This document shows, one piece after another, positions 2,535-55,500 of a stretch of DNA of 64,000 nt. This DNA comes from Diabrotica undecimpunctata (lineage: Eukaryota > Arthropoda > Insecta > Coleoptera > Chrysomelidae): contig NC_092808.1 in assembly GCF_040954645.1 (NCBI RefSeq), positions 18,729,383 to 18,793,382 of the forward strand, given 5' to 3'. A model generated the notes under the pieces. That model saw only the letters and a program-made list of their open reading frames with translations. It was not told the DNA's origin and did not search any database. Every line of letters starts with the position of its first letter. Position 1 is the stretch's first letter. The translations under genes were made by a program, and so were the position numbers.

Positions 2535-5124
2535 AAAGGGCTTGGGGGAAAAAGGTAACAAGCCACATAAATCTAAAAAATTAGATTTCCTCTAAAAGAT
2601 ACCTGCAAGTCTGCAATGAAACTGCTGATCAATTATTTCAGCTATTGATAAAGAGATGGCGCCTCTATACGCGAATTTCTTTCTTAACAATTGCCAAAAT
2701 TCAGAAGTTTTTGGTTAGAAAAGGAACATGCCACAGGCGAATTTCAAGATGGATGACTATAAATTACGCCGAGCTAAAAGAAAAGTTGATTTTGAGAGTA
2801 GTAGTGGAAGTGAATTCTCTGATTTTGATTCAGATGACGATATGAATGATAAAGATGACAGTGTTACTGAAAGTGACTGTTCAACAGGAGTTATACATAT
2901 ATTGGTAAGTTTATTTCTATGCGGCTTATTCCCTTTTTTAGCAAAAGATTTTGTTATTTTTAAGCTTAATATAAAATTTCAAATTTTACCTATGTATCGG
3001 AATATGTATTGTTGCCTTTACGTACAATACGTCTACATAACGCAGTAATGTTGTGTAACTACGATGTGTACTGCGTTATATCTCCGGCTGCAGTATTTTT
3101 GTTCATATGCCTAGCAGAATTTCTACGAAAACTGTGTGTGGCTTTCCAGAAAATTCAACGCCCTCACGCTGGAGAAAAGTTCATTCTAAGAAAAGGGACC
3201 GGGAGAAAACACAAATGTAGAACAAGCCTGATGGGGAAAGAAGAAGAAATTTTTCATGCATTTTGGAATCTGGGGACTCGACAGCAATAAAATAACTACT
3301 TATTTAGTAGAATAAAATGCATTCCCAAAAAAAGAAGTTACCCAAAAAAAATCAAACGCCAATCATCTTGTAAAAGTATATCATTTAAATATTATATAAA
3401 GATTAGGTAATGCCACTGACAAAGAAGTATGCAAATCTGAATTTTTGGCAGTTCATGGTCTTCAGCAGTCAAAAAAGCGGATATATAATATCTGTTGCCA
3501 AATAAAGGAAGGAAAGTCTACTCCAAAAACTGATAAGCGAGGAAAACATACGAACAGAAAAAACAAAATATCTGAATAGAGAATTCTGTCCATCCATCGA
3601 CATATTCAAGCAATACCCAAATATTCTAGCCATTACAGCAGGCAAGATAACCCCAACCGCACTTACATCAATCACGAATTGTCCATATCATCTTTATATA
3701 CAGATTATTATATACCTTGGTACAATGCCAAACATATTGTCCCAGTGAAAGAAAATTATTACAGAAGAGTTTTTTGCTCGCAATATAATATAGGATTTAA
3801 ACAGCCAAAAACGGATACATGCCAAACATGCGATTCATACAATGTCTCGCTCGAATCAAATAAAGAAAATGCTGAAGAATGTCAACAAATTAAGTTAAAG
3901 TTAGAGTTGCATCAAAGAAGGGCTGAGGCGATGCAACAGGACTTGATAAAAGAGTCTGCACATGACAAATTAACAGATGAAAAGGAAGTAATTTCATTTG
4001 ATTTACAACAGGCATTGCCAGTGCCGAATTTGACTATGGAAAAAGCATTTTATTTGAGAAAGGCATGGATGTACAATTTGGGCATCCATAACTGCAACAG
4101 AGAGCAGGGGTACATGTTCACTTGGACCGAAAATGTGGCAAAGAGGGGTAGTGATGAAATTGCAAGTGCACTACTGAAATATATCGAAATGTTCCTAACA
4201 AATACTGACAATAAAGAGCTTATCATTTACACCGATAACTGTGGGGGTCAAAATAAAAACTGGGCTCTGATGTCAGTATATATCCAACTAGTAAGAGAAA
4301 AACAGTTTTTGGCTATCGAACATCGTTTTCTTGTAAGTGGGCATACGCGCTTACCCTCAGATCGTGATTTCGCCCTAATTGAGAAGAAAAAGAAATTTAC
4401 GGCACAAATCTATCATCCCAATCAATGGTGCGACGTTATAAGAAAAGCCAAAAAAACCAATCCATTTGAAGTTATCAAGATGCAACAAAAAGATTTTATT
4501 TTCTTTGGCCAGCTGCAAATGCAAACTAACAAAAAACAGACGACAGGCGAAAAAGAACCTTTACGTTTTAGTCAAGTTAGATGTTTTAGATTTGAGGCGG
4601 GTAAACCAAACACAATGCTTGTGAAACACTTTTTAAATGAAGAGTTCAAATCGGTCAATATTGGTAAGCGAGGAGTAAAAGATGGAAATCGAATAAAAAA
4701 TCTAAGAGATCTTCCTCCAAAATATACCACATCTGTACCTCTTAACGAAAATAAGCTAAACATTTAAGGGAACTGATGCCTTATATTTCTTTAGTTTATC
4801 ACGACTTTTACGTTAAGCTAGGCGTTCGACAACAGTCAACAGACCTCGCAGAAGATCCGGAAACGGAGACACAATACAACAATGTTTTTGTAAAAAAGGA
4901 GTAAGCCACGTTGCTCAAGAAAAATATTTTTTCTCTTTTAGTTAAGAGTTCCGTTTGTTTTTTTTAGTTTGTAAATTGCTTATATTCAGAAGAAAGCTTC
5001 ATTTAAAAAAATATTGTTGTGTTTTAATAAAAACTCTGATTTAAGGATTTGATTGAAAGTTTCAAACTAGGTTTTCTCCATTTTCTACTTTTTTGGCTTG
5101 TTACCTTTTTCCCCCAAGCCCTTC
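2535..5124 (+). mobile_element. Complete 2.59-kb DNA transposon, DUF7869-like family, 4-bp TSD
   Basis: Inverted ends match for about 30 bp: AAAGGGCTTGGGGGAAAAAG... at 2535 and its reverse complement ending at 5124 (first base differs, A/G). Both ends are flanked by AATT (2531-2534 and 5125-5128), a 4-bp target duplication. The only coding content is the spliced, now broken transposase-like gene described separately. Four-bp TSDs are known for the Sola superfamily; assignment to Sola is inference and needs a profile search. Confidence 0.8.
2728..4904 (+). pseudogene. Transposase-like gene with RNase H-like DDE signature, broken
   Basis: Exon 1 (ATG 2728 or 2749, to 2904) encodes an acidic region, SSSGSEFSDFDSDDD, and ends at a GTAAGT donor. 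The main exon is readable from about 3409 to 4764: EVCKSEFLAVHGL, then an in-frame TAG (3577-3579), then HIQAIPKYSSHYSR, a CxxC pair in TDTCQTCDSY, and three acidic blocks, FDLQQALPVPNL, YTDNCGGQNKNW and HTRLPSDRDFALIEK, placed like D, D, D/E of an RNase H-fold transposase. A frameshift near 4760 moves the C terminus (LRELMPYISLVYHDFYVKLG...) to another frame, ending at TAA 4902-4904. So there are at least two lesions, plus stops between 3170 and 3300. It sits inside matching TIRs, which supports a role as the element's transposase. The family is widespread in arthropods as uncharacterised DUF7869-type proteins (from memory). Confidence 0.75.
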
Positions 5125-19079: not shown

Positions 19080-21712
19080 TTCTTCTTCTTCAAGTGCCAT
19101 CTTCGTTCCGAAGGTTGGCGATCATCAGGGCTATACGTATTTTCGAAACTGCTGACCGAAACAATTCGTTGCTGCTACAGCTATACCATTCCCGTAGATT
19201 CTTTAGCCAGGAGTTTCGTCTTCTTCCTATGGACCTTTTTCCTGCTATTTTCCCTTGCATAATTATTCGAAGCAGTTCATATCTTTCGCCTCTTGTAATG
19301 TGTCCCAAGTATTGCAGTTTTCGTTTTTTGATCGTAAATATGACTTCCTTTTCTTTATTCATTCTTCTCAAGACCTCGACATTTGTGACTCTCTCGGTCC
19401 AAGATATTCTCAGGATTCTGCGATACATCCACAGTTCAAATGCCTCTAATTTTTTGGTATCTTTTTCAACGTCCATGACTCCATTCCGTAGAACAGCACA
19501 GAAAGTACGTAACATCTCATCAGGCGAAGTTTCATTTCAAGGCTCAAATCTCTTCCGCAGAACACTCTCTTCATTTTAGTGAATATGGATCTGGCTTTTT
19601 CTATTCTTATTTTGATTTCTGCTGAGCTATCGTCGTCTTCATTTATAAAAGTGCCTAAATATTTGTATTTGCTAAGTCGATCGATAATTTCATTGTGTAA
19701 ATATAAATTTTGGACATTTTGTGTTGATTTCGATATTACCATAAATTTAGTTTTTTTTATGTTCAAAGATAGTCCATATTCTTCGCTGCAGTCTGCGTCT
19801 GCAATCTTATTCACCAATGTCTGTAGTTCTTCAAGTGTTTCTGCGATCAGAACGGTGTCGTCGGCAAATCTCAGATTGTTTAATCTAACACCATTTATTT
19901 TAATACCTACGGATTGCTCAGAGAGTGTTCTATTCATTACGTCTTCGGAATAGAGATTAAACAGGGTTGGTGACAGTATACACCCTTGTCTCACACCTCG
20001 CTTTATTTCAATTTCTTCAGTGGTATTATTCTATACTTTCACTACTGCTTTCTGATTGTAGTACATATTTGCTATTAGTCGGATGTCTCGTTTATCTAAA
20101 TTCTTTTCTGTCAGGAGTCTGATTAGGTGATCATGCCGCACTTTATCAAAGGCCTTGTTGTAATGTATGAAACACATGAATACATCTTGATTTATGTCAA
20201 GACATCTTTGAAACATAACGTTCAGTGCAAACAACGCCTCTCTTGTTCCAAGTCCATTTCGGAATCCAAACTGGGTATTATTGATGTCCATTTCCAGTTT
20301 TCTGTGTACTCTAGAGTGTATAATTTTCAGAAATATTTTCAGTACATGGCTCATCAGACTGATTGTACGGTAATCACTGCATTGTTTGGCATTTATCTTT
20401 TTTGGTATAGTAACAAAGGTGGATAAAAGCCTTTCTTGTGGTATTTTTCCTGATGTATAAATGCTATTGAAAAGTTTAACTAAAATGTGAATCGAGGCTT
20501 TTTCTATTCGTTTAAGGATTTCCGTTGGTATTTCATCTGGACCTGGGGCTTTACCATTTTTCATTCTTTTTAGTGCGTACATTACTTCTTCTTCCGTGAT
20601 TTCTGGACCTTCGTCTCCTTGTATGTTACTTAGCTCAGATTGTTGTTTATCATCTGCAAAGAGTTCTTCAATATAGTTTTTCCATGTCTTCAACTGTTCT
20701 TCTAGTTCTGTTATTATGTTTCCGTTGACATTATACAGGGTATTTGGCTGCTTACGTTTTTGTGTACCTGCAAGTTCTTTCACTTTTTTATGTACATTAA
20801 AAATATCATGTTTTGCCTGCAATTGCTCTATTTCTTCACATTTTCTTTTATAAAAATCTTCTTTTGCTATTCTGATTTCTATTTTGATTTCTTTCTGTAT
20901 TTGTTTATACCTTTGTTCGTTTTTTCCTTTCATTATTCTCCGATTGTCCATGAGAAGAAGGATCTTATCAGTCATCCACCTTTGCTTTATTTTTGGTTTT
21001 TCTTTAGTCAGAATTTTCTTCACAGGACCTGTTATCGCCATTTTTACGTTTTGCCATTTTTTATCTATGTTGTTCGTTGGCTGAGATGTTTCTTTTTCAT
21101 GAAGTATTTTGAAATTATTATTAATACATTTTTGCTGTTTCTCCTTTACCTCCAGGTTACATAAATGACTGACGTCTATCTGATTTGCTCTTCTTTTCTG
21201 CTCCAATCTTTTTAGTTTAATACTCATTTGCGCTATTAGAGGGTTATGGTCTGAAAAGACATCTGCGCCTGGGTAAGCTTTAACGGATTTTAAGGAGTTT
21301 CTGTATCGTTCGTTTATCAGTAAAAAATCAATCTGGTTTCGAATTATTCTTTCGCCATTGTCCTGGGGTGATTTCCACGTATAAAGTCTTCTCTTTGGTA
21401 AGTTGAAGAATGTATTAGATGCAATCATGTTATTCTCCTGGCAGAATTGAAGTAGTCGGTCACCTCGTTCATTTCTTTTACCGAGTCCGTATTCTCCTAC
21501 ATGTTTTCCACTTTTTCCTTTACCAATTTTTGAGTTAAAATCACCTAGAATTACGGTAATGTCTCGTGGTTTCGTCGATTTTAATACTTGATTGATTTCT
21601 TCGTAGAATTGTTCAATTTCGTCCTCGGGTTTATCTGCAGTAGGTGCATAGATCTGTATGATATTTAGTTTACTTGTGTTTGTTTGTAATTGAAGAAATA
21701 ACATTCCTAACT
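19080..21712 (-). pseudogene. RTE-type LINE with endonuclease and reverse transcriptase, nearly complete
   Basis: The longest LINE here. From 21704 the reading starts inside the endonuclease (IQIYAPTADKPEDEIEQFYE, VILGDFNSKIGKGKSG, TWKSPQDNGERIIRNQIDF, YPGADVFSDHNPLIAQ), so the N-terminal 'TWNV' and 'ETW' blocks are lost by 5' truncation. It continues through MKNGKAPGPDEIPTEILKR, NTQFGFRNGLGTREALFALN and CFIHYNKAFDKVRHDHL. A single in-frame TAG at about 20028 interrupts it. Then come GVRQGCILSPTLFNLYSED, LRFADDTVLIAETLEELQTL (intact FADD) and YLGTFINEDDDSSAEI. A frameshift near 19455 joins to LEAFELWMYRRILRISWTE and GKRSIGRRRNSW, ending DGT followed by a GAAGAAGAA tail. RTE/BovB-like; few lesions imply recent insertion. 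Confidence 0.9.
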
Positions 21713-23163: not shown

Positions 23164-23265
23164 TGCTCTACATTAAATCTCGGGCATAATTAATGTTTTG
23201 TATGTATGTATAAGTGCTCTACATTAAATCTCGGGCATAATTAATGTTTTGTATGTATGTATAAG
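23164..23265. repeat. 51-bp tandem duplication
   Basis: Two identical 51-bp units (23164-23214 and 23215-23265) beginning TGCTCTACATTAAATCTCGG. The second runs straight into the SINE's target duplication. Its two units look identical, so it is recent. Confidence 0.9.
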
Positions 23266-23266
23266 T

Positions 23267-23533
23267 GTCGATCGGATTAGCCAAGCGGGCTGGGCGGCTG
23301 GCTTCTCCTTCGCTTCAATGCGAGAGATGTCAGTTCGATCCCCAGCTCGGTGTGCAGAAAAAAAAGGCTAACGCAGCAGTTTAAAATTCTAAAATGAATC
23401 TGCGGCTTAGTCTAGAATATGCTGGTATCTGATCGGCCTATGGTGGAGCAGTACGGCAAGAGATAAGGGCTTGCGGCTAGGTGATACTCCTCCATAGATC
23501 CCTACCGGAAGGGCGTCGAACGCCTAAATACCG

Positions 23534-35749: not shown

Positions 35750-37360
35750 CAGTCTAGATCGAGTGTTTTCTCGTCCTATCCCACTCGGGGGCAAATTTCT
35801 ACTTGAAAAAGTACTTAAGGCCTCTATTTGGGTACCATATGGTCAGAAATCATCATCCATTCGGTATCCTTGATTTCATTTATGTTACTAGGTCCTTAAG
35901 TTGTTGCCGAGAGGAGGCATTTGGGCCTGTAGGACCCATCGCCGGCTCTTCGGGCTTTTTCCTATCCCTGGAATTGGATCGGGTATTTACCATCTTTGGT
36001 TTGTCGCTGGTAGAAAGGTTAAATATCACCGCTGTTATAAATAACAGTTCCAGTGACAAATATCTGTTATAGGTAACGGTTCCAAGGAACAGTTACAAAG
36101 TAACAGAGCAAAAATGGAAAACAGATAGGTAAAAATGATCTAAGTATTCCTTGACCTACGGAAGGAATAACTTAGTAAACAAGTAAATTAAATGGTATAA
36201 AAATATAATGCAAAGAAAAATGTTTTTAAGTGTTTCTTGACTTACGGAAGAAACAACTTAGGACAGAAATATAGATAAATGATATATGTAAATGTGAGAG
36301 TAAAATATGGAAATATTTCTAAGTGTTTCTTGACTTACGGAAGAAACGACTTGGAAAAATAAAATACTCAAAATATAAAACGAGAAATGCAAAAATGAAA
36401 CAGATTATAGAAATATGTCTAAGTGTTTCTTGACTTACGGAAGAAACAACTTAGAACAGAAAATAAACAAGAGAATCAAATATATTAAAATAAATGCACA
36501 AATATTTATAAGTGTTTCTTGACTTACGGAAGAAACGACTTATAATAGAAAATAAGAAAAATCAAATATAGAAAAGATGTGAAAATATTGCTAAGTGTTT
36601 CTTGACTTACGGAAGAAACAGCTTAGCAAAATATGGAAAAATGAAATAGACAAATATATAAGTATTTTCTTAACTTACGGAAGAAAATATCTTAGATAAA
36701 ATATCAGAAATAATAATGCGATATGAAAATATTTCTAAGGGTTCTTTTGACTTACCGGAAAAGAACGACTTGGACACACAATAAAATAACAAGTCAGATA
36801 TCAGAGAAATACTTCTAAGAGCTCTTTGACTTACCGAAAAGAACTACTTAGATACAAAGTACAAAATCAAATATATAAAATAGAAAAGGCAAGATAAATA
36901 TTCCTAAGTGTTCTTAACTTACGGAAAAACAGCTTAGATACAAATACAAGAAAATAAACAATCAAAAATAATCAAATAAAATAGCAAACAATCAGTACAT
37001 GAACAAATATGTAATATTCTAACCTGACAAGGTCTGGATATACAATAATGCTAAAATAGAAAGGTATACAGGAAATCAGAAATAAAACAATAACTTAGTT
37101 GGAACAATAATAGCACCGACTAGGTCTACAGTAGAAGAGGCAAGCTCGACTGACCGATAAGAGAAAATCTACCTGCTTTTATGTAAAACAAATCCTTTGT
37201 TTTACGTAGCAAAAGTGGAATTTCCCTGCATCGAGTCAATTAGAAATTTGGATTTGGCCAAACTTGGAATTCCCAAGTATTTTTACCAATATCCAAATTT
37301 GATGCGTCCGGCACGGCTGTCAGCTCCTGGCTGACACGCCTCCGGAGGACAAAGTAACCA
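35750..37360. repeat. Hairpin array: about ten covarying stem-loops plus flanking strong hairpins
   Basis: Non-coding on both strands. Ten units start near 36140, 36226, 36319, 36419, 36507, 36590, 36658, 36735, 36815 and 36904 (spacing 67-100 bp). The common form is CTAAGTGTTTCTT, loop GACTTACGG, AAGAAACAACTTAG: a stem of about 12 bp with one unpaired purine on the 3' side. Stem changes pair up: ATTCCTT with AAGGAAT (unit 1), TATAAGT with ACTTATA (unit 5), GCTAAG with CTTAGC (unit 6), GTTCTTTT with AAAAGAAC (unit 8). Before the array, GGTAACGGTTCC/GGAACAGTTAC (36072-36095) pairs. After it, GTAAAACAAA/TTTGTTTTAC (37183-37205), AAATTTGGAT/ATCCAAATTT (37244-37300) and TGTCAG/CTGACA (near 37318-37336) pair. 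Linkers are A-rich and unconserved. Identity unknown. Confidence 0.85.
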
Positions 37361-37700: not shown

Positions 37701-38051
37701 AACAGGTTAAGTGCCATGAGAGGCCAACACGGATTCACGCGCTAGATCGTCAGAAAATGCTATGTAGCTCAACAGCGGCTTCTCGAACTCATTTAAAATA
37801 CACGGGGACATTTAGAGCCCGGCCAGATGGTCCAGAAAGCATACTTGGCCTGTGCTTCTGAGATGTCAACGAGGACTCACGTGGCTCATAATATTTATAA
37901 GTAACAATTGCGTAATTATATATTTTTTGTTATATATTCATAATAAGAACACATTTTAGGCAAAATAAGTTTATTTTCATAAAACAAAACGTAATAACAT
38001 TGTATCAAAATTTTATCTAAAGTACTAATTTAATTTTTTGTCACGGAATTT

Positions 38052-39755
38052 ATGACAAAAAACAGCCAAGGAGGCAATAGAATTTTTTACAACCATCACA
38101 TGTCAATGGGAGGAACAAGGAATTCGGAATCCTGGAAAATACTGAAATCTTTAAGGAAGAATAACAACGAAAAGGTCCAAATACAATACATATCAGAAAA
38201 AGAGTGGGAAGACTACTATAAAGAACTACTCACAGAAAACCGCCCAGATTTCATAGAGACAGACACAGAAGAGGAACAACAACAAAATCAAAATGAAGAA
38301 TCAGGGGGACCAGGAGGAATCGTTAATGAACTAATTAAGTACGGAATGGACAAACTACACAGAATTATACACGAAATGTTCAGTAACGCTATAAACCTGA
38401 ACGAAATACCAGAAGAATGGTTCAAAGCATATATAACCTCGATACATAAAAAGGGAGATAAGAAGAAATGCGGGAACTACAGAGGCATTAATGTGATAGC
38501 ATGCATGTGCAGGTTATATGGAAAAATGCTGAAAGAAAAACTGGAAAAATCTATCTCAAATAAAATCGGAAAAGATCAGGCGGGGTTCACGGCAGGAAGA
38601 TCTTGCATAGACCACATTTATACACTCCAACAATTAGTTGAAAAGAAAATGGCAAAAAATAGACCAGTACACATGGAATTCATAGATTTAAAAAAGGCGG
38701 TCCCCAGAAAACAACTATGGAACACGATGAAGGAAATCGGAATAACTCAGAGGTTAATAGAAGCCGTAAAACGCCTTTACAACAACAACAAAGTAAGAGT
38801 TAAAACCGGCAATAAATACTCCAACGAATTTAAGACCACAAAACGCTTATTGCAGGGATGCTCTACATCTCCGGCACTGTTCAAGATTTCAAGATATCCC
38901 TCGAACAAATATTAAAACCATGGAAAAGAAAATGTGAAGGGATGGGAATACCAATCCGGGACAACTTCTTGTACACATTAAGCTTTGCAGATGACCAAGT
39001 TGTAACGGCTCAAGATGAAGAAGATTTGTGCTATATGCTCCGAAAATTAGAAAAGGAATACACAAAAAATGGACTGGAAATAAATCTAGAAAAGACCGAA
39101 TATTTAACAACAGAGCAAGAACCAGCGAGAAACTTCGAAATGGACGATAATAAGGAAATTAACGGCACTGACAAATTCAAATATTTAGGATTCATACTCT
39201 CAAAAAATGGAACCACCGAGCAAGAGATAACCAGCAGATTAGCACAGACAAGAACATGTATTAAACAAATGAACGGGGTACTGTGGGATAGACGGCTTAC
39301 CAGAAATACAAAGAAGAGAATTTAGAACACCTTGGTACGCAGTATAATGACCTATGGAGCAGAGAATTGGGTAATAAATAAACGAAACAGGCCCAAAATC
39401 ACAGCAACTGAAATGGAGTTCATGCGAAAAAGCTGCAGAGTTACAAAAATGGATCGCATCAGAAATGAGGAGATAAAACGAAGAATGGCAATAGAACAAG
39501 ACATACTCAGCTACATCGAAGAAAAACGTTTAATTTGGTATAGACATGTGAGAAGACCAGATCATACAAGGGGGATAGCAAAGATTTCGGATTTGAGCCC
39601 AATAGGAAGGAGGAAAAGAGGTAGACCCCGAACATCATGGAGGGATGAAGTGGACGAGGCCATGGAAAGACGAGAACTTAGAGATAGAGAACGGCAGAAC
39701 AGAAAGGACTGGAGACGTTGGCTGAAAGAAGGAAGGCGGCGACATAGGTGAGTTT
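38052..39755 (+). pseudogene. RTE-like LINE (family B) reverse transcriptase, broken
   Basis: Reads SWKILKSLRKNNNEKVQ, GGIVNELIKYGMDKLHRII, IPEEWFKAYITSIHKKGDKK, CGNYRGINVIACMCRLYGKM, DQAGFTAGRSCIDHIYTLQQ, MEFIDLKKAVPRKQLW (the catalytic 'vDlkKAyDsvp' has lost its second Asp), then LLQGCSTSPALFKI. A frameshift near 38890 leads to LSFADDQVVTAQDEEDLCYM (intact FADD) and YLGFILSKNGTTEQEITSRL. A stop (39323) precedes MTYGAENWVINKRNRPKI and RRKRGRPRTSWRDEVDEAM. The endonuclease is missing. The copy at 59.1-60.5 kb is the same family (shared WKRKCE.MG and CRLYGK blocks). Inserted between the ends of a piggyBac remnant. Confidence 0.85.
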
Positions 39756-39829: not shown

Positions 39830-41160
39830 TGGTATCGTCATGCTTTTATTAGCAATGCTTTGATGCCCGACATCAGATGAGCTCCATCGATAATTTTATG
39901 TACCGTTTTATTCCTTTACATAATGGCGAATTATATCTTGCGGTTTGCACGTAGCGTACCAATCATATAAGTTTTCGGTGTAGGAGTTCATGTGCAAGTG
40001 TGACAGAACTGTAGTAGTCATCAATCGCAAGTGTTCGTCCTTTGTCAAGCAGTTCATCCATAAGTTTTATCACTACATTTGTTGGTACGTTGCTACCTTC
40101 AGCATGTTTTTTTCTACAATATGCATTAAAATCGTAGGTATAACCACCTTTCAGATAAAGTTTGAATAATTTTATCCCAAATTTGTGCCTCTTGTCTGCA
40201 ATATACTGCTTGAATTTTAGTCGCCCTTGAAAAGGCACTAAAGTTTCGTCAATGCACACGTTTTTCATTAAAACGATGGCAGCCTTGAATTTATCATTTA
40301 GTCTGCTAACCAAGAGAACGATCTTCAGCAAACGGTCATCTATTGTTACTGAATTATCGTTGAAATGCAGCGTTTTCCATAATAACTGGAAGCGATTCCT
40401 TGACATTACTTTTTTGATATTATTCATATAAAGATCATTCTTTGACCAATACAAATGAAAAGATGGAAAATGACATAATTCCATCCATATAACTGGAACC
40501 AGGAATCGTTTTAATTCAGCGACATCAGTGTTGTGCCACGCAGTAGTACCTGGGCTTTTTTTCTGATTTTTTTCCTGACATTGCAGGGCATACCGATTTG
40601 TTTTTTTGGCCTAAAAATAAAAAAAAATCGAAATCAGTTGAACAAAATAAATTAGATATTTACCATCATGGATAAAAGACCATCGTCTACAAAATATTCG
40701 TAGAATTGAAAGGGCGATTTGTTGTGGAAGTTTTCGTATACTTGTGTACGAAAACCTGCAGAATTATAGTCCTCAAATGTAAATTTTTGTAAATGTTTGC
40801 CCCTGTTGACCGGCCTACACACAATAGAATAAAATTTCCTATTCGGAGACTTCAGAATGTTGGGCAATGACAAATTCTATAGCAGCATCAACATGTTTTC
40901 TGAAATTAGTATATTCTTTTTCTTTACTGGTGGACGCTGATACATGTATGCATAACGGTATGGTATTTCCGGCCACAGGTTTCCTTTTTTTATTCTGTTA
41001 TTGAGTACTCTATGTATTTTCACTGTCACTAGAATTAGTTGGTTGGTACTCGTCCGAAAGATACCTGTCGTCAAACTCATCCCATTCTTTATCTGACAGA
41101 ATTTCTTGCCAATATTTTTCAAGTTTTTCTTCCTCTTTCTGGTACGACTGCATTGTACCG
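39830..41160 (-). pseudogene. PiggyBac transposase remnant
   Basis: Minus strand: an acidic N terminus (LSDKEWDEFDDRYLSDEYQP near 41080), KKSPGTTAWHNTDVAELKRF (40600-40520), then an open stretch (40484-39963) with WSKNDLYMNNIKKVMSRNRF, FQLLWKTLHFNDN, NVCIDETLVPFQGRLKFKQY (first catalytic Asp block 'DE.MvpFkGR..frQYip'), KFGIKLFKLYLKGGYTYDF and GRTLAIDDYYSSVTLAHELL (second Asp block 'DNfYTS..La..L', here DDYYSS). The third Asp region is lost downstream. Several stops in the N-terminal half. It lies between TTAA-type ends. Confidence 0.8.
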
Positions 41161-52535: not shown

Positions 52536-55500
52536 TTATTCATCATCGCTATCATCAACTTTTTTTGTAGTAACAACTAAATTTCTATAGAACTCCTGAA
52601 ACTGACTGGGGATCCATTGTAAAAGGATTAGTAAGTGATCCTTTTTCTTTTGTGTGATCCCTTTTGGTTTTTGATATCGTAGTGGTAACTGCTCTGGAAG
52701 ATTGATCGCAGTTGCTGTTCTTCTAGCGACGTGTAATTCTTTGGGTCTAATTTCTTCAAAAGCCTCTTTATAAAAAATTATGGTCGGTGTGTCTTTTTTT
52801 ACTTGGAATTGGACTACGTTTGAAATGAGGAAATTATTATTGTCGGCATTTTTCTTTTTACTGATGAATGGGGATTGAGATTGAGAGTAAAGTACTTCAA
52901 AATTTTTGAAGTCATCCTTGTCCATTTTAATCACCTGAGCACCTACGGAACTGATTAATTGCTGCCAATCCCAAGGCGTTACGATCTGCATTGTTGGCTG
53001 TTTTTTTACAGATCTTTCAATTATAGCGTGCACTTGGTCAGCTTCTAAATGAGTGTGTCCTCTCAGTAAATATTTATGGTTAACTACTTTTAAATTAGGG
53101 CAGTTGTTGAAAAGCCAAAAGTAGCTCATCATTACCATAACATTGCGGTTTTGACTAGGGCAATTATCTGACCAAATAACCAATTCTTCCACATCAATTT
53201 GTGATAGAACTGTCATAGCCCATTTAGTTAATGCCAAGGCAATTTCATGGCCACCCCTTCCATTCGGATTCGTCCCAGATAAGGCAATACGATTTATTTT
53301 CTGTGGCGTCGTATATCGTGAAATTTATAGTCCATAATTTCAGCTTGTAGAAACTTTGGTTATTTGTCAAACAGGGCGTAGGAAAGCATTTCTGCAAATC
53401 ACACATTATAATTTTAGTTTTTCCAGCTGATTTTTTGCTTTCATTTTTATCGTTTGCTTTCATTTTGTATCGACTTTCTGCTTCTTGAAGATGTTGTTCA
53501 TAATTTCGCCGTAATGTTATTGTTTCTTGCTCGGAACAGTTTTTTAATTGTAGCATAAACCGATCGCAACTATCACAAGTATCCACGGAAACCGATTTAA
53601 ATGCTAAATTAAAATCATTATTGAAAATTTTTTTATACAGCCATAATTTAACAATTTCATTATTTGGAATGTGGTCTTCTTCACACTTTAAGGTATATAA
53701 TTTGTACATTTTTTCACGGCTCAATTCTGGTCCTAGATATTTCTTGGCAGTTTTGGATCGAGAATAATGACTTTCGTAGCACGGAAACGACTTAATGTGC
53801 TCTCGTACTCGATCCAAAACCGCTTCTGGTGTTTTATTAATTGGTTCATGCCTTCCCCTATGGTCTTGTGCCACAAAGCCTCCCATATTGTCGTTTTTTA
53901 GAACGTTACGTACAACTGTTTCTGAAATATTTAGAGTGTTTAAAAAAAATTTTTTACATACGTCAATTTTTTTTACACCTCCATCTAACTTTATATCAAA
54001 ATTATAAGAAATGCTGACTTCTCTCGGCCTTTTAGAATGGTTTTTAGGTCTACGACGTATTACACTCTTCGGAGTGATATGCGAGCGCACAAATTGACGC
54101 TTTAACTCCCAATTTTTTGTGTTACACCAATAATTCTCAAAAATTTGCTGTCTTACAGCTTCTGCTATTTTTTCTGAACATTTTAGTCGACAAGGAGGGC
54201 AAGGGGGCTTCATTGCTTTAGCTTTTACAATTTTACCTGATTTATTGATGTGTTCCTTTCCTCCTAATGTTGCCTCTACTCTTTTTGTTACTTTCCAAGT
54301 TTCTGGTTTCTTATGACGTCTTTTCTTTTTGATTTGGTTATTAGTTTCCGTTTCATTTTCAGTCAAGTTTTTGTCAAGTTGAACATCTTCATCATCATCT
54401 GCTTCCAATTCACCATTATTGTCTACCAAATAATTGCTACTGTAGCTATTGTTATTGCTGTCCATATTTTCTCCATCATCGTCTGTGTAATCGGGGTCTT
54501 TTACGCTATCATCATCGCTAACACATTCTTCAGTTAAATTAGACAAATAATTGCAATTTTGAGCACGGCTTGTTGAAGCTTGAGCAATATCAGAGGCGTT
54601 CGTCGATTCTGTAAATAAAAAAATTTATTTTTATTTAATCTTCTCTATCTGTCGAACTGTTAACAGTACACAGAATAATTTATTATATTAAATGGGAATA
54701 AAGCCACAATTTATTTTTAAATGAATTTATTTAAAAATAAATTGTGGCTTTATTTCCATTTAAAATAATAAATTACATAAGATACCACAAGAAAATAACT
54801 TCAGAACAATACACAGAATAAAGCAAAAAATGGATTAGAGGCATTGTTGTGTGATTCTCAAAAAAAGCAGCAAGTTCACTATTTTGCAGGTTGATGTTTT
54901 CTTAGAAAGATAATACAATACCAGTTACTACAAAAATACTACTTAAGGGGATGGGTACGAACTTTCGACTTCAATGATATTTAAATGGGATTCATTTTTT
55001 TTAGAATTCTGAGAAAACTAATAAGTATTTCTGAAAAATTTAAACTCAGTCCCTGAAAACTTCTATAATGTTTATTTTAATAAGTTACGGGGGTGAAAAA
55101 CGAAGAGAAAATGTAGTGTGATTTTGAATTTGAAATATCTCATTCAAAACAAATTTTTATTCATTCTAAGGGACTTTCGGCCCTTTCATTTTGCGTTTAA
55201 ATTTGTTAAAAATACTTATTAGTTTTCTCAGGATTCGAAATAAACGATAACATTTAAAATACATAGAAAATTTTGAAAGGCGTCAAAATTGTGCATTTTT
55301 GTTCCTTTCCCCTTACTGGTTATATTAATTTTGTATTAGTATTAGATTTTACAAATATTTGTTGAAGATTAAGAATTTCAATTACTTTAAAAAAGGAGCA
55401 ATAAATGTACTTATGCATCTGAGAATTGGGCAGTGAATAAAACAACATAATATCTACCGGTCAGAACTCTTACAACAGCAATATTTTCAAATGCCCAAAC

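Follow-up and report, generated by a model that had tools for sequence, protein, structure and literature searches.

A tandem array of bulged hairpins in the putative leader of a Ty3/Gypsy retrotransposon of Diabrotica undecimpunctata

Results

The locus

The stretch of DNA analysed here (the window; 64,000 nucleotides) holds a solo LTR within which lies an array of ten hairpins. The sense strand of the element is the minus strand of the window; the sense 5' end of the LTR is at 37351 (TGTCCTCC...) and its sense 3' end at 35902 (...CGGCAACA), the two ends reading ...GAGGACA and TGTTGCC... in window orientation. In sense order, the LTR contains a TATA/initiator-like promoter, a putative leader of about 1.16 kb with the hairpins, and the start of gag. 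The features, with positions in the window, are as follows.

35902..37351, minus strand: solo LTR of a Ty3/Gypsy retrotransposon (ends common to copies; TG...CA)
35898..35901, unstranded: left target-site duplication AAGT (read from the sequence)
37352..37355, unstranded: right target-site duplication AAGT (read from the sequence)
37176..37183, minus strand: TATA-like CATAAAAG (sequence motif)
37149..37153, minus strand: initiator-like TCAGT (sequence motif), its A at 37151 being the putative transcription start
36902..36939, minus strand: hairpin U1 (this and the next nine are covariance-model matches)
36813..36853, minus strand: hairpin U2
36733..36775, minus strand: hairpin U3
36656..36697, minus strand: hairpin U4
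36589..36628, minus strand: hairpin U5
36506..36545, minus strand: hairpin U6
36417..36456, minus strand: hairpin U7
36317..36356, minus strand: hairpin U8
36224..36263, minus strand: hairpin U9
36138..36177, minus strand: hairpin U10
35902..35993, minus strand: first 30 codons of gag, ATG at 35993-35991 (reading frame; continues beyond the LTR end in full-length copies)

We take CATAAAAG and TCAGT to be TATA-like and initiator-like; TCAGT lies 25-32 bp beyond CATAAAAG in the sense direction, and the TCGGTCAGTCGAG motif was found in 28 of the 29 sequences examined. More hairpin-like inverted repeats occur at 37180-37208, near the promoter, and at 37309-37335, at the outer LTR end.

Elsewhere in the window, open frames at 3580-4767 (E 9e-13) and 52536-53324 (E 1.6e-7) match DUF7869 and carry a DNCGGQNKN-like motif, and are probably parts of a transposable element. 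A transposase piece at 39963-40610 (DDE_Tnp_1_7, E 9.9e-44) is presumably piggyBac-like. LINE-type reverse transcriptase pieces lie at 20034-21710, which also retrieved an endonuclease match, and at 38034-38912, and a perfect 51-bp tandem duplication is found at 23164-23267.

The hairpin units

A covariance model trained on 20 shared units matched ten units on the minus strand at 36138-36939, 68-100 bp apart (26.6-68.7 bits, E 5.7e-16 to 2.5e-4); its other matches comprised five weaker ones at these positions on the mirror strand, plus two with E 0.19 and 1.2. The initial annotation's count of about ten regularly spaced hairpins is thus borne out. It had placed them at 36024..36940 and described them on the opposite strand to the element's sense; the units fill all of that range except the first ~115 bp (36024-36137), which hold inverted repeats of another type. 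Between array and gag, 36021-36120 contains a second set of inverted repeats, TAACAG/CTGTTA and GGTTCC/GGAACC.

Read as sense RNA, every unit consists of a stem, a bulge on its 5' side and a CC(G)GUAAGU loop, a typical unit reading CTAAGT-Y-GTTTCTT, loop CCGTAAGTC, AAGAAAC-ACTTAG, often with AAATATTT next. We distinguished ten unit types and typed 195 units (21 loci holding 22 LTRs), with 6-12 units per LTR. Upper stems have 7-9 pairs depending on unit type, with both arms of equal length, and some stems of the window copy contain private mismatches. The single unpaired base said to be kept on one side is present in nine of the ten unit types, the exception being U3, which has a 2x1 internal loop. 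The loop, described as conserved, is GTAAGT in nine of the ten hairpins of the window copy and GTAGGT in the remaining one; across copies it varies, being TTAAGT in U4 and GTAAGA in U9 in many of them. The TAAG:CTTA pairs are nearly invariant. The loop shares TAAGT with the 5' arm, so that ACTTA of the 3' arm could pair with either (for example at 36417-36456), and a switch between the two pairings is conceivable.

With up to two mismatches allowed, the 1.74-Gb assembly contains 7,185 occurrences of the core motif, in small clusters, versus 47 of a reversed control, and the array therefore belongs to a dispersed repeat. A scan of the window against Rfam 15 gave no matches at the gathering score, and the exact hairpin pattern was found in none of the viral contigs searched.

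The host element

Searching the insect's own genome with the LTR gave 42 matches among those listed, at 91-100% identity. Among 20 fetched loci plus the window, 12 of 18 stand-alone LTRs have matching 4-bp flanks, judged by eye. Two of the fetched LTRs (L032 and L033) belong to one element, are separated by 4.6 kb and have ATGT as outer flanks; between them lie gag (Ty3_capsid, 2.7e-8) and then a frame with reverse transcriptase (3.8e-38), RNase H and integrase (7.7e-11), integrase following RT-RNase H as in the Ty3/Gypsy pol order. An aspartyl protease match (2.2e-12) was found in another element, L050. The primer-binding junction CTCGGCAACA|TGGCGCCCAAC at the end of the 5' LTR occurs in 312 places versus none for the control; we take TGGCGCCCAAC to be a tRNA-Lys primer site. 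The polypurine tract AGAGGAGGGGGGA stands before the 3' LTR. Because of these TG...CA LTRs, 4-bp duplications, primer site, polypurine tract, gag and pol order, the array-bearing repeat is, judged from its sequence, almost certainly a high-copy Ty3/Gypsy LTR retrotransposon. The hairpins had at first been regarded as an element of their own; they are instead the putative leader region of this one. A DNA transposon with palindromic subterminal repeats, which the initial annotation had singled out for checking, is ruled out by the LTR ends, the duplications and the linked gag and pol.

Nine loci selected by gag and not by the hairpin motif (L051-L059; gag identity 84-100%; L051 and L032 being one element) all carry the array. 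The gag piece of L032, 318 aa long, contains the Ty3_capsid domain and gave no zinc-knuckle match. A protein search with gag returned two matches among 952 candidates, both from Diabrotica undecimpunctata. L050 has a shorter interior of about 2.2 kb, in which gag and protease were matched, and is likely non-autonomous. Comparison of its two LTRs shows no difference over 1,114 positions and 99.5% identity over another 210, so this element was recently active. The interior is similarly short (about 2.1-2.2 kb) at G000:C5:98854659-98859652.

With other Ty3/Gypsy elements this one shares its LTR ends, duplication, primer-binding site, polypurine tract, Ty3_capsid gag, protease, and RT-RNase H followed by integrase. 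It differs from them in having a hairpin-array leader within the LTR, a gag AUG that also lies within the LTR, upstream of the primer-binding site, and a gag piece without a zinc-knuckle match. The coding parts are thus those of an ordinary Ty3/Gypsy element, whereas the leader array is unusual.

The leader and its predicted fold

Of 29 sequences, 26 span the initiator motif to gag and make up the leader set; L031 (894 nt) and L043 (896 nt) fell below a 900-nt cut-off, L059 lacks the motif in the piece examined, and L050's second LTR is likewise absent from the set. Each of the 26 leaders has 1-4 AUGs in the sense direction versus 8.4-14.9 expected from shuffles, while CAT, the mirror of AUG, occurs 14-27 times per leader versus 14.8-26.3 expected. 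Since upstream AUGs are depleted in sense and not in antisense, this suggests that the region is a 5' leader scanned by ribosomes. Of the poly(A) signals, neither AATAAA nor ATTAAA is present in the window LTR, and AATAAA occurs in two of the 26 leaders.

The plus strand of 36024-36940 has a predicted RNA fold at z -8.0, with none of 20 shuffles as low. In the whole leader of the window, all ten upper stems are predicted at pairing probabilities of 0.78-0.97; one of ten in L036 and four of eleven in L053 are predicted at 0.5 or below. The window leader folds better in antisense (z -7.5) than in sense (z -3.6), and sense stem changes include 18 G-U versus 15 A-C, showing no strand preference. 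For these two reasons, the fold taken by itself shows neither whether RNA or DNA is involved nor which strand. The case for the sense RNA, in which the fold probably acts, comes solely from the AUG depletion and the layout relative to gag.

Probable selection on the fold

Of 24 units that occurred two or more times, 20 were aligned after four of types U1 and U4, in another register, had been left out. In this alignment, 97.7% of 260 cells are paired, and the covariation score is 0.157 versus 0.074 in shuffles, none of 500 of which (all keeping relatedness in place) reached the observed value. Double-sided changes affect 4 of 13 pairs, a count reached by 13 of 500 shuffles; seven of the 13 pairs are invariant, and the pair-type count was reached by 176 of 500 shuffles. 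When the arms of the unit types were re-paired, the summed energy of the true pairing was -121.5 versus a mean of -89.3, with 1 in 100,000 re-pairings as low; taken singly, a unit type's own 3' arm was best or tied in just four of ten.

Across 25 leaders, shared variants per site number 0.033 in stems, 0.043 in loops and 0.185 in linkers, about five times rarer at hairpin sites than in linkers, whose counts may be inflated by gapped alignment. Columns with shared variants number 12 of 362 in hairpins versus 65 of 351 in linkers (p 2.6e-11). The 219-nt stretch preceding the array is equally conserved (0.050 shared variants per site). Within a unit type, none of 15 shared pair variants is compensated (7 A-C, 4 G-U, 4 other), and neither are most single-locus ones (3 of 42 compensated, of which those in U6 and in U9 are found again in L053); recent changes thus mostly disrupt pairing or produce wobble pairs, the pattern expected of decay.

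The compensatory stem changes and freer linkers reported from the window alone are therefore also seen in genome-wide copies. As for the selection on RNA or cruciform DNA structure that had been proposed, the arms remain complementary, and the near-equal G-U and A-C changes given above favour neither of the two. On the sequence comparisons, selection on the hairpin fold is very probable.

Discussion

A candidate recognition array

Our preferred explanation, to which we give a probability of roughly 45%, is that the leader hairpins would be recognised in the RNA as a multivalent array. They would form the structured 5' leader (the R/U5 part of the LTR) of the genomic RNA and gag mRNA, the recognised features would be the GUAAGU loop and the 5' bulge, with the stems merely presenting them, and hairpin copy number would supply avidity. 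A fixed loop and bulge, a free but paired stem, free linkers and many copies within the leader of gag are what a protein-binding RNA hairpin would be expected to leave as its trace. The reader would most likely be the element's own Gag or a host protein, and the purpose genome packaging or dimerisation. That packaging or dimerisation is the array's main job is putative, drawn from position and fold, and we rate it a little below even odds. More doubtful is the further idea that the genomic RNA is recognised through 6-12 near-identical bulged hairpins as a naturally occurring equivalent of an MS2 array, with unequal exchange tuning this recognition by way of unit number and the array replacing a zinc-knuckle Gag.

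Alternative explanations

The hairpins might instead control translation, pacing or steering scanning ribosomes toward gag with the help of two recurrent tiny upstream frames. Scanning is implied by the AUG depletion, 20 of the 26 leaders have an AUG near +153 to +168 that meets a stop two codons later, and 19 of 26 have an AUG within the 5' arm of U5. Pacing would need neither a conserved loop nor a bulge, however, and single hairpins are predicted at only about -7 to -16 kcal/mol; we regard this as unlikely.

U1 snRNA is complementary to the 5' splice-site core GUAAGU, and the loops could display this core to U1 snRNP, which would protect or retain the RNA, or they could act as decoy donors. 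Each leader has 6-12 GTAAGT, sited in loops, which in the window leader have an unpaired probability of 0.74-0.91. We nevertheless find a U1-binding array distinctly unlikely: most units have CC on the exonic side, the U4 and U9 variants of many copies lose the GT or the last T, and location in an LTR would put the array at the 3' end as well.

A role at the DNA level, as cruciforms or as a palindromic protein site with an insulator- or enhancer-like action within the LTR, would fit the lack of strand bias among wobble changes, and palindromic repeats serve as promoter boxes in the LTRs of Sirevirus. A protein site, though, would conserve letters rather than pairing, and the array lies downstream of the promoter, inside the leader, making this role similarly improbable.

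It is very improbable that the array has no function, unequal exchange keeping the hairpins alike and template switching between arms making paired changes in one step: near-identical middle and diverged edge units, and 11 versus 10 units in the two LTRs of one element (L032/L033), fit unequal exchange, but the linkers are not homogenised, template switching should erase the bulge that nine of ten types keep, U9 holds a T-G intermediate at a pair that is elsewhere T-A or C-G, and shared variants are fewer relative to singletons in hairpins (13:82) than in linkers (65:124; p 2e-4).

Comparison with known systems

The coat-binding hairpin of RNA phage MS2 has a stem of free sequence, one 5' bulge and a fixed 4-nt loop. 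The array units share its free stem, single 5' bulge and fixed loop, which we do not suggest reflects common descent; the MS2 operator is one short hairpin, whereas the array has many units. In the Drosophila gypsy insulator, too, units are repeated within the 5' untranslated region of a Gypsy element; these are double-stranded Su(Hw) sites, without hairpins.

Among the systems considered, the Ty1 leader hairpins and the Sirevirus palindromes come nearest. The Ty1 leader (PMC5454406, PMC8396678) is also a structured 5' RNA end with the gag start codon inside, hairpins and a packaging signal, packaging being putative here; its two hairpins differ from each other, have complementary loops and are accompanied by a pseudoknot, in contrast to a tandem array of like units. 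Sirevirus LTRs (Ty1/copia, plants) also carry many repeated palindromic units, described as short CGG-CCG palindromes upstream of the TATA box (PMC2829016), whereas ours are stem-bulge-loop units downstream of the promoter. A Sirevirus-type LTR repeat was set aside, as the TATA-like box precedes the array and the pol order is that of Gypsy, not copia. Titles and abstracts on LTR-leader hairpins or tandem repeats, Diabrotica LTR elements, Ty3 packaging, U1 and LTR elements, hairpin arrays and retroviral tetraloops yielded no array of like form.

Significance

Packaging signals of LTR retrotransposons, Ty1 included, are poorly defined (PMC8396678). The array's hundreds of copies amount to a natural mutational series from which the features recognised, and their reader, could be identified. 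Visibly different rules govern the evolution of loop, bulge, stem and linker, and the array would be a case of structure-keeping selection within a transposable element.
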